Part shown: positions 22,479 to 32,221 of the stretch, in pieces
How the letters are laid out: the number at the start of each line of letters is the position of its first letter
Numbering within the stretch: the stretch's first letter is position 1
Source: Ponticaulis koreensis DSM 19734
Lineage (GTDB): Bacteria > Pseudomonadota > Alphaproteobacteria > Caulobacterales > Hyphomonadaceae
Assembly: GCF_000420665.1 (NCBI RefSeq)
Contig: NZ_ATVJ01000001.1
Coordinates: 1,550,001 to 1,614,000, forward strand
DNA: 64,000 nucleotides
Direction of reading: 5' to 3'
The notes under the pieces: model-generated
Told to the model about the DNA's origin: nothing
Database searches by the model: none
The model's input: only the letters and a program-made list of their open reading frames with translations
Translations under genes and position numbers: made by a program

Positions 22479-22665
22479 CGCTCATCCCTGCGCAGGCAGG
22501 GATCTGGCGAGGTTGGCAGGCCCAGTTTCCCGCCGTCGCGAGAATGAGCGCACAATTCTGAATTCCGCAGATGCCCGCGAAGGCGGGTATCCATGCTTAG
22601 ACATTCGCTTGCTGCAGGGCGTCAGATTTAAGCATGGGTTCCCGTCTTCACGGGAACCTGCGGGC
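22479..22665. repeat. composite dispersed repeat, copy 2
   Basis: Same orientation as copy 1, offset 682-683 bp. It starts CGCTCATCCCTGCGCAGG and ends at GGAACCTGCGGGC. Differences are scattered substitutions, such as CTGATGAGG against CTGGCGAGG. Similar tails containing GGTG(C/T)ATTC and AATGCACC continue to about 22711. The rest of the 22433-22758 gap contains no gene. Confidence 0.85.
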
Positions 22666-28778: not shown

Positions 28779-28854
28779 AGCCCTGTGGCGAAAGATTAAC
28801 GCGGCAGACCTGCAAGTCTGCTATTTTCAGGTTCAAGTCCTGACGGGGCTTCCA
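28779..28854 (+). tRNA. tRNA-Cys-like gene (anticodon GCA) with an atypical D loop and anticodon arm
   Basis: A cloverleaf can be folded. The acceptor AGCCCTG pairs with CGGGGCT in all 7 positions (one T-G), discriminator T and encoded CCA. The D stem is GCG/CGC. The T arm has 5 perfect pairs with a TTCAAGT loop. The anticodon GCA (28812-28814) has U33 and A37, and U73 fits tRNA-Cys. Oddities: the anticodon arm is 18 nt (5 bp plus 8-nt loop, or 6 bp plus 6-nt loop), and the D loop AAAGATTAA lacks the GG pair. It may be a specialised or decaying tRNA. Confidence 0.75.
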
Positions 28855-30970: not shown

Positions 30971-31555
30971 TTATTTGACGCCAAGCGAGCAGAGAAAGCG
31001 GAGCGCTTCGGTGAGGCGCTCTTCGCGGCTGCCACGGACTTCAATCCATGGCACGCGGCTTTTGATGATCTCTTCGCGGAAGCGGGTCGTCATGGTGTGG
31101 CGCTCTTCGCCGCCCTCGCGAATGGCATCGGCCTCGAAGGCAATGTCGTCAGAGGTGAGGACATAGGCAAACGGGCGAACCTGTTTCGCTGCAACGGCAT
31201 CAACAGCTGGTGAGCGAGACCCGAAATAGCGCTCATGCCAGAGCGCGGTAGTGAGGGCATCTGTGTCAGCAATGATGAAGCCATTGTCAGAGCGGCGCGC
31301 GGCGGCATCTTCCAGCGCGTTCTGCTCTTCGGCAATCTCAACAAGCTCTTCGGTGCGCCATGGCTCATCTGTCACTTTGGCGCGGCGTTCGGTGTATTCG
31401 CGACCATATTCGGCGACGTAAGGCGAGTTCAAAGCCTCGGCCATCATGAGCGCAAGCGTGGTTGTGCCGGTGCTCTCTGCACCTGTCACCACAATGCGAC
31501 GACAGAATTTGGCGCGCAGCGAAGCGGGCAGTAAAGGCCAGAAGATATTCGCCAT
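30971..31555 (-). CDS. nicotinamide riboside kinase (NadR kinase domain-like)
   Basis: 194 residues from the ATG at 31555, whose first base overlaps the pnuC stop (TAATG). Its P-loop reads GAESTGTTT at residues 25-33, with Thr in place of the usual Lys. FVAEYGREY-type sequence (YVAEYGREYTERR), FIIADTDALTTALW and YVLTSDD match the NR kinase domain of NadR. It would phosphorylate nicotinamide riboside to NMN. Coupling to PnuC gives a two-gene NAD-salvage operon. Confidence 0.88.
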   Translation of the reverse strand: MANIFWPLLPASLRAKFCRRIVVTGAESTGTTTLALMMAEALNSPYVAEYGREYTERRAKVTDEPWRTEELVEIAEEQNALEDAAARRSDNGFIIADTDALTTALWHERYFGSRSPAVDAVAAKQVRPFAYVLTSDDIAFEADAIREGGEERHTMTTRFREEIIKSRVPWIEVRGSREERLTEALRFLCSLGVK

Positions 31556-32157
31556 TAAGTGAGACTGTTCGCAGCTTTCGGTTTGTCGGTTCGCGCTTTC
31601 TGCCACTCAATCAGACCGGCAATACACATCGCCAGGAAGACCGCATAGAGCCCGGCTGTCAGCCAGAGACCCTTATGGATGTAGAGCGGGATGTAGATCA
31701 GATCGACCGCGATCCAGAGCCACCAGTTGGCAATCCATTTGCGCGACAGCATGAACTGGGCAACGAGGCTCATCGCGGTGGTGAGCGCATCCCAGCCTGC
31801 AACTGTGGAGTCAGTGTATTCGTGCAGCACCCATTGGATGAGGGCGGCAATGACAATAACGGCAACTCCGCAGGCGATGAGGACCTTCGGGGAGGCTTCG
31901 TGAACTTCTACGCCCTTATGGTCATCGCCGCCGCGCAGCCACCAATACCAGCCCAGCGAGGCCAGAATGAAGTAGACGCCCTGAAGGCCGGCATCCGCGT
32001 AAAGTCCTGACTGGACGAACAGCACCGCGAAGAAGACATAGTTCACCATGCCGACCGGGAAGGTCCAGATATTACGGATAACGAGCAGCCAGACGCAGGC
32101 CGCGCCCGTTACAAAGCCCGCCAACTCAATCCAGTTTGCGATCAACCAGTCGATCAT
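31555..32157 (-). CDS. pnuC: PnuC nicotinamide riboside transporter
   Basis: About 200 residues with seven membrane helices. The PnuC signature VRNIWTFPVGMVNYVFFAVLF-type (RNIWTFPVGMVNYVFF) is in helix 2-3, and the late NWWLWIAVDLIYIPLYI motif is also typical. It moves nicotinamide riboside by facilitated diffusion, trapped by the coupled kinase. The start is taken at M8 of the longer frame (32157), which is followed directly by the family core; ATG at 32178 is possible. Confidence 0.94.
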   Translation of the reverse strand: MIDWLIANWIELAGFVTGAACVWLLVIRNIWTFPVGMVNYVFFAVLFVQSGLYADAGLQGVYFILASLGWYWWLRGGDDHKGVEVHEASPKVLIACGVAVIVIAALIQWVLHEYTDSTVAGWDALTTAMSLVAQFMLSRKWIANWWLWIAVDLIYIPLYIHKGLWLTAGLYAVFLAMCIAGLIEWQKARTDKPKAANSLT

Positions 32158-32221
32158 TAGTCCCGTCGCCCATGTCACCTGATTAAAATCTGTATCTGCG
32201 TCGCTGCGCTATGGGAAGCGA

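Follow-up and report, generated by a model that had tools for sequence, protein, structure and literature searches.

A non-canonical second tRNA-Cys with a rebuilt anticodon arm in Ponticaulis and Brevundimonas

On the forward strand of a 64,000-nucleotide (nt) stretch of the genome of Ponticaulis koreensis DSM 19734 (contig NZ_ATVJ01000001.1, positions 1,550,001 to 1,614,000; hereafter the window) lies, at positions 28779-28854, a non-canonical tRNA-Cys-like gene of 76 nt with an encoded CCA end. This report describes the gene and its anticodon arm, follows its relatives within and outside the genus, and considers what such a tRNA may do in cells that also have an ordinary tRNA-Cys.

The gene and its cloverleaf

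The gene is recovered by the Rfam tRNA model RF00005, by ARAGORN, which assigns it no isotype, and by R1, a covariance model built from eight copies of the variant tRNA. With 46.1 bits against a gathering score of 29, the Rfam model accepts the fold that a first-pass annotation, made from the sequence alone, had proposed; by this score the gene also ranks last among 40 tRNA matches in the 6-contig genome of 3.4 Mb. R1 gives the gene, itself one of the seeds, 90.3 bits.

The 5' strand of the acceptor stem, AGCCCUG (28779-28785), forms seven standard pairs, including a U6-G67 wobble, with CGGGGCU at 28844-28850, and the 3' part of the gene (28844-28854) continues through U73 (28851) to CCA (28852-28854). 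After UG comes the D arm (28788-28802), GCG-AAAGAUUAA-CGC as read and aligned, whose stem of 3 base pairs (bp) is like that of the normal tRNA-Cys of the same genome and whose loop has G-A at the place of G18-G19. A single G precedes the anticodon arm, which consists of the 5' stem strand GCAGAC (28804-28809), the 6-nt loop CUGCAA (28810-28815, with the anticodon GCA at 28812-28814) and the 3' stem strand GUCUGC (28816-28821); the assignment of six pairs to this stem comes from covariation in relatives. The variable loop, read directly, is UAUUU (5 nt; 28822-28826), and the T arm (28827-28843), read and aligned, has a 5-bp stem of UCAGG and CCUGA, with U49-A65 and A51-U63, around the loop UUCAAGU. 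Every pair of the cloverleaf is standard. The intact acceptor and T arms, the encoded CCA, U73 and the anticodon GCA were all as first annotated, with exact coordinates. The gene lacks the 7-nt loop on a 5-bp anticodon stem expected of a tRNA and, being tRNA-like in everything else, is classed as a structural variant. It resembles canonical alphaproteobacterial tRNA-Cys(GCA) in its anticodon, U73, U8-G9 and GCG/CGC D stem, but differs in its 18- rather than 17-nt anticodon arm, 6-nt loop, A1-U72 pair, T stem and D loop.

The normal tRNA-Cys sought elsewhere in the genome is present, with anticodon GCA, on contig C2 near 72500-72573. Since the 39 tRNAs other than the focal one serve all 20 amino acids (ARAGORN), the focal tRNA is an extra. 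The 16 relatives that were checked, 12 of them carriers of the variant tRNA, all proved to have a standard tRNA-Cys as well. These results support the initial suggestion of a non-canonical tRNA-Cys isoacceptor and, with a normal tRNA-Cys present, a second one would be free to specialize. Cysteinyl-tRNA synthetase (CysRS) gave a single match in 25 of 26 genomes and none in the incomplete genome G001; the enzymes of P. koreensis and of one Brevundimonas are named cysS by NCBIfam.

Conservation within Ponticaulis

A DNA search of 61 genomes matched six, all from the focal genus, which NCBI places in the order Hyphomonadales, and amounting to six of its seven genomes; the search did not find the tRNA in the seventh, G005, which is 91 % complete. 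Identity to the focal gene in the five other genomes is 100, 100, 90, 87 and 84 %. All 76 positions agree between G000, G003 and G006, which count as three separate species; the copies of G001, G002 and G004 keep their stems intact at 84-90 % identity. This conservation means that the focal gene is no chance tRNA-like sequence; a pattern search of six genomes of the genus gave only chance matches. The 18-nt anticodon arm is common to all six copies. The replacement of G18-G19 by G-A, which had been pointed out at the outset, is real in the focal copy, but is not a trait of the family: it is confined to the three identical copies, and GG is found in G001, G002 and G004. Five further loci from Ponticaulis and other Hyphomonadaceae have portions of one chromosomal block in common with the window or with each other, and this sharing points to vertical inheritance within the genus.

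The anticodon arm across relatives

An alignment of 96 loci (69 distinct sequences; rows L062 and L120 represent one gene) was assembled with a model seeded on sequences having GCA and U73. In 93 rows the anticodon arm has 18 nt; those of L188 and L191 are one nucleotide shorter (17 nt) and that of L199 is one longer (19 nt). The 18-nt arms read as a 6-bp stem closing a 6-nt loop of the form N-Y-G-C-A-A/U, with A in place of Y in two of them. The sixth pair, 32:40, is standard in 62 of the 69 distinct sequences (C-G in 32, G-C in 21, U-A in six and U-G in three; other combinations in seven). These columns are paired in 89.9 % of sequences versus 48.1 % after shuffling, none of 500 shuffles reaching as high, and the figure is 27.5-33.3 % when the partner is slid one to three columns downstream. 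Because the R1 seeds all have C-G at this pair, the G-C and U-A versions were not introduced by the model. The helices overall are 99 % paired, and 13 of the 21 pairs have changed on both sides among the 69 distinct relatives. The extra base of the arm had thus been counted correctly at first pass, whereas the 8-nt loop given there as one option fits less well with the covariation than a 6-bp stem and 6-nt loop. Based on these patterns, the gene is almost certainly a functional extra tRNA-Cys, its anticodon arm remodelled into six stem pairs that close a 6-nt loop and its structure under selection.

A standard sixth pair is missing from nine of the 96 rows, seven of which have C-C. Additional Brevundimonas copies lying outside the alignment (L218 and L263-L266) are C-C as well, in five of five cases, and the score limit used under-samples the Brevundimonas group that lacks the pair. 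In the copy from Aliihoeflea, the anticodon stem begins with A-G as its outer pair. Three single loci depart in other ways. L188 (1259-1334, genome G687) and L191 (2501-2576, G721) have the 7-nt loop UCGCAAA, with C33, alongside the T arm of the family, and are possibly ancestral or reverted forms. In the Brevundimonas locus L201 (1861-1937, G766), the anticodon is UCA rather than GCA and would read UGA.

The idea, first raised by the initial annotation, that the focal gene is a pseudogene or a decaying copy is highly improbable. Its bottom rank in the Rfam search, the loss of G19, the absence of any match on its strand in a promoter and terminator scan, and the existence of a truly decayed copy in the Brevundimonas genome G259 would all suit such a fate. 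However, identity over the full length in three genomes and intact stems in three more, together with the double-sided changes by which relatives alter their sequence while preserving their stems, argue against it.

Relatives outside the genus

A pattern of arm and T loop, run over the contigs of species-level genomes, hit 15 stretches; ARAGORN places a tRNA at seven of them, and the other eight lie outside tRNAs. The seven tRNAs belong to Ponticaulis and other Hyphomonadaceae (five), Brevundimonas sp. ACE_PRO1 and Aliihoeflea aestuarii. R1 scores 87.6-95 bits for the seed copies, 73.5 for normal tRNA-Cys and below 49 for the other tRNAs of the genome. Within Brevundimonas it matches at E<=1e-15 in 89 of 131 genomes, and nine additional genomes, five of them among the misses in the set of 131 and four absent from that list, score just above E 1e-15. 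Genomes G696, G238 and G311 hold two variant copies each, L218 being the second in G238. At the level of the order, 35 of 398 genomes matched R1, limited to two of 59 genera. The class sample gave 17 matches among 289 genomes; the 16 outside the P. koreensis genome all scored 69-73 bits, and of these the 14 that were read are tRNA-Cys with a 7-nt loop. The phylum sample gave two of 398, both from the same two genera as the order-level matches. Sampled searches of this kind can miss sparse cases such as Aliihoeflea.

Among viral contigs, a first scan with the pattern returned eight stretches and one real case, L270 on contig IMGVR_UViG_2593339199_000002, a similarly built tRNA with the arm GCUGGC-UCGCAA-GCCGGC that lies three bases from a normal tRNA-Cys. 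Four more arm patterns recovered only L270 again from the viral contigs, the other stretches being six 7-nt-loop tRNA-Cys and L295, which is no tRNA. The contig of L270 (158-313) is phage-like and also carries a tRNA-Asn, and 80 bases at the tRNA-Asn are 96 % identical to a Paenibacillus plasmid. As to a mobile origin, a plasmid search with Ponticaulis and Brevundimonas copies, and a phage search with a Brevundimonas copy as the query, gave no match.

The Brevundimonas genomes also record losses. G259, which is negative at the threshold, retains beside its transglycosylase gene a decayed copy of 57 bits, with a C-A mismatch in the acceptor, a broken T stem and a CCG end, and in G338 there is no match between the transglycosylase gene and gapR. 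From these losses, the variant tRNA gene is dispensable. Judged by sequence, the decay in G259 looks unlike anything in the focal copy.

Origin

The 46 columns outside the anticodon arm were used to compare the variant with the normal tRNA-Cys. Across them, the mean identity of the Ponticaulis copies to the normal tRNA-Cys of the same genomes is 74 %, and to the Brevundimonas copies 57 %; between the Brevundimonas copies and the normal tRNA-Cys of those genomes it is 79 %. Brevundimonas rows that were not 77 nt long or lacked TGGCGGAG had been dropped beforehand; for a tree, every fifth of the remainder was used, along with 12 of 16 normal alphaproteobacterial tRNA-Cys in addition to that of P. 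koreensis. Four Ponticaulis copies form one clade in this tree and 12 Brevundimonas copies another. An approximately unbiased test on the 46 columns rejects a single clade of Ponticaulis and Brevundimonas (p 0.0026); it keeps a single clade of all variants (p 0.135) and one of Ponticaulis, Brevundimonas and Aliihoeflea (p 0.118). Separate origins are favoured by these comparisons, though not proven. It is tempting to go further and suppose that hexanucleotide-loop tRNA-Cys arose several times independently, in Ponticaulis, Brevundimonas, Aliihoeflea and phage, each time from an ordinary tRNA-Cys by the same rebuilding of the arm, such that CysRS accepts the product, the ribosome rejects it and it feeds cysteine transfer; this full scenario is doubtful.

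The recurrence bears on a further account, namely that the gene is a redundant tRNA-Cys reading UGC and UGU in the normal way, its odd arm merely tolerated. The tRNA-Thr1 of yeast mitochondria, functional with an 8-nt loop, and the Brevundimonas group in which the sixth pair is missing are in keeping with tolerance. Nonetheless, compensatory changes at the sixth pair over most of a genus, combined with recurrence in several lineages, speak for use rather than tolerance and make this account quite improbable.

Positions kept and positions relaxed

All 96 rows of the alignment have U73, CCA, G2-C71 and C3-G70, and 95 have GCA. Position 33 is U in 79 rows, C in 13, A in two and a gap in two, and position 37 is A in 82 and U in 14; decoding tRNAs nearly always have U33 and a purine at position 37. 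MiaA, the enzyme that makes i6A37, wants A36-A37-A38, a run that is broken in most variant copies because position 38 now lies inside the stem. GG occupies the aligned D-loop columns in 94 of the 96 rows. The 64 distinct Brevundimonas rows average 0.85 bits of entropy per column in the anticodon stem, against 0.12 in the T arm, 0.07 in the acceptor stem and 0.04 in GCA. All 64 have a sixth pair in the T stem (C-G, columns 50:68), and the Aliihoeflea copy has a sixth T-stem pair too. The acceptor and T stems together consequently measure 13 bp in Brevundimonas and Aliihoeflea, and the usual 12 in Ponticaulis and the phage-like contig. For tRNA-Sec, the title of a 1991 paper cited in PMC7609411 makes acceptor length the determinant of SelB versus EF-Tu use, and with it of escape from EF-Tu. 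For L120 (genome G741), a fold that joins the D loop to the 5' strand of the T stem is predicted to be 2.9 kcal/mol more stable than the cloverleaf; the normal tRNA-Cys of Ponticaulis also has a better non-cloverleaf fold, and the L120 fold may mean little.

This uneven conservation could be that of a decoy or regulatory RNA, a tRNA-Cys mimic with CysRS, an anticodon nuclease or some other tRNA-binding protein as its partner, or a source of fragments, that delivers no cysteine. A conserved GCA loop and acceptor/T domain above a drifting anticodon stem would fit that role, as would dispensability, 42 of the 131 Brevundimonas genomes being without a match at E<=1e-15 (at least five of them matching at a slightly laxer limit) and the G259 copy having decayed. 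On the other hand, the invariant U73 and encoded CCA are needed for charging and not for a loop decoy, and no linked toxin or nuclease gene appears among the ten window proteins and four others named by family search. A decoy is, on balance, unlikely.

Gene neighbourhood

In Ponticaulis, the tRNA sits in a chromosomal block with LysE, AraC, NmrA, PnuC and an AAA_28-domain protein, as well as what we take to be an aldo/keto reductase. The AAA_28-domain protein (30971-32178 of the window, reverse strand) adjoins the PnuC-type nicotinamide mononucleotide transporter, and the pair probably serves NAD salvage. Elsewhere in the window, at 22565-22663, an inverted repeat whose 35-nt arms are 83 % complementary and 29 nt apart looks like a repetitive extragenic palindromic (REP)-type element.

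The surroundings were compared with 20 Brevundimonas regions, their genes predicted by a simple custom script. A lytic transglycosylase (MltB_2) gene stands at most two predicted genes from the tRNA in 15 of these regions and gapR is nearby in 12; only five window proteins have any match there, each in one to three regions. In ten of the 20, cysS lies approximately 1.5-4.5 kb upstream of the tRNA. A linkage of cysS and tRNA was nevertheless dropped, as cysS is not near the tRNA in G206, G238, G391, G741 and G358 and is about 293 kb away in P. koreensis. Of 90 Brevundimonas stretches that span the 80 bases ahead of the tRNA, 48 contain the motif TTAACC, mostly 61-74 bases before the gene, versus 1.4 expected by shuffling; we take it to resemble a CtrA half-site, and it may belong to a divergent neighbouring gene.

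A possible cysteine donor outside ordinary translation

The reading that we prefer, with a probability of roughly 40 % for the chain as a whole, is that the variant is charged by CysRS, is not an ordinary elongator and donates cysteine outside ordinary translation. A functional second tRNA-Cys would have been derived from the ordinary one by rebuilding its anticodon arm. The single CysRS would charge it with cysteine, since U73 and GCA, which PMC9976931 gives as the main features marking a tRNA for cysteine in E. coli and yeast, are kept. The variant would be kept out of ordinary elongation, or perform poorly in it, for want of several features: the 7-nt loop is gone, U33 and purine 37 are partly relaxed, and some lineages have abandoned G18-G19 or the 12-bp acceptor/T stack. 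It might then supply Cys-tRNA, or act as a cysteinylated RNA, for a purpose other than codon reading.

The closest precedent for such a role is the non-proteinogenic tRNA-Gly of Staphylococcus aureus, for which loss of the D-loop GG and A51-U63 are among the traits reported (PMC4052509). Like it, the variant is an extra isoacceptor, and the focal copy is without the D-loop GG and has A51-U63. Its 49-65 pair, however, is U-A and not the A-U of the weak EF-Tu pairs of those tRNA-Gly. The tRNA-Gly moreover concerns a different amino acid, its consumer is FemXAB, and the available portion of that source mentions no altered anticodon loop.

Several observations weigh against the cysteine-donor reading. 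U33 is retained in most rows, the loss of the D-loop GG is limited to three identical copies and the 13-bp stacking is absent in Ponticaulis. Three of the 96 arms are not 18 nt long, and one Brevundimonas group has lost the sixth pair. Because GCA and U73 sequences seeded the model behind the alignment, part of the conservation among its rows comes from how they were chosen. Decoding by yeast mitochondrial tRNA-Thr1 with its 8-nt loop makes an odd loop compatible with ribosomal use. No gene neighbour conserved across the lineages was found. Among 26 genomes, Lant_dehydr_N (PF04738, PEARL-type) had no match, the control genomes being silent too, and FemAB (PF02388) had weak matches in six, Ponticaulis only and including G005, in which the tRNA was not found, and none in 19 Brevundimonas. 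These two families, the ones tried, thus yielded no consumer enzyme and no correlation with the tRNA.

The main competitor to a cysteine donor is a specialized decoder, reading cysteine codons with an altered frame or rate, for instance by a +1 shift at UGY-N, or reading UGA. SufJ-type +1 frameshift suppressors have an extra base 5' of the anticodon, the place where alignment puts that of the focal tRNA; these suppressors are laboratory mutants, unlike the present tRNA, which is natural and has a covarying sixth stem pair. More generally, PMC7803779 describes tRNAs that have gained a nucleotide to one side or the other of the anticodon as the well-characterized +1 frameshifters. The 79 rows with U33, a phage-like contig carrying the same architecture beside a normal tRNA-Cys, and the UCA anticodon of L201 would also suit a decoder. 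Yet C33 or A33 in 15 of 96 rows and U37 in 14 are unusual for a decoder, and a tRNA that constantly shifted frame at cysteine codons would carry a heavy cost, save where the shifting is weak. Frameshift decoding is a serious rival that is not specifically supported, and a specialized decoder of either kind is a minor possibility.

Comparison with known tRNAs

Other unusual tRNAs share single features with the variant. Yeast mitochondrial tRNA-Thr1 (UAG) is likewise natural and has an extra anticodon-loop base, but it is organellar, its loop is 8 nt with an extra U between U33 and the anticodon, and it reassigns CUN codons to threonine. The selC* tRNA-Cys is similarly a non-canonical, extra bacterial tRNA-Cys-like gene with U73 and GCA. 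Whereas selC* tRNA-Cys (8/4 acceptor/T) and allo-tRNA (9/3) both have a long variable arm, the focal tRNA is 7/5 with a 5-nt variable loop. Also natural and unusual in the anticodon region are chloroplast tRNAs reported to have putative quadruplet anticodons (PMC9840617), but these are organellar. Anticodon loops of other than 7 nt are reported as rare exceptions; PMC5009743 names a mitochondrial tRNA each from yeast and from a sponge, and tRNAs of a phage that has many relatives. Bacterial tRNAs with 4-bp anticodon stems are the subject of a 2026 survey, in whose main text a term search found neither longer stems nor 8-nt loops. Among the titles and abstract openings listed by full-text searches, which leave out most subscription papers, none describes a bacterial tRNA-Cys with a 6-bp stem and 6-nt loop. 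The closest kinds described differ from the variant tRNA-Cys in defining features.

Present in about 100 species, a tRNA of bacterial chromosomes whose anticodon arm combines a covarying 6-bp stem with a 6-nt loop would widen what counts as a working tRNA. It also offers a direct test of whether recognition by a synthetase and decoding on the ribosome can be separated mainly through the anticodon arm. If the variant does feed a non-ribosomal reaction, it would point to a new cysteine-transfer enzyme.
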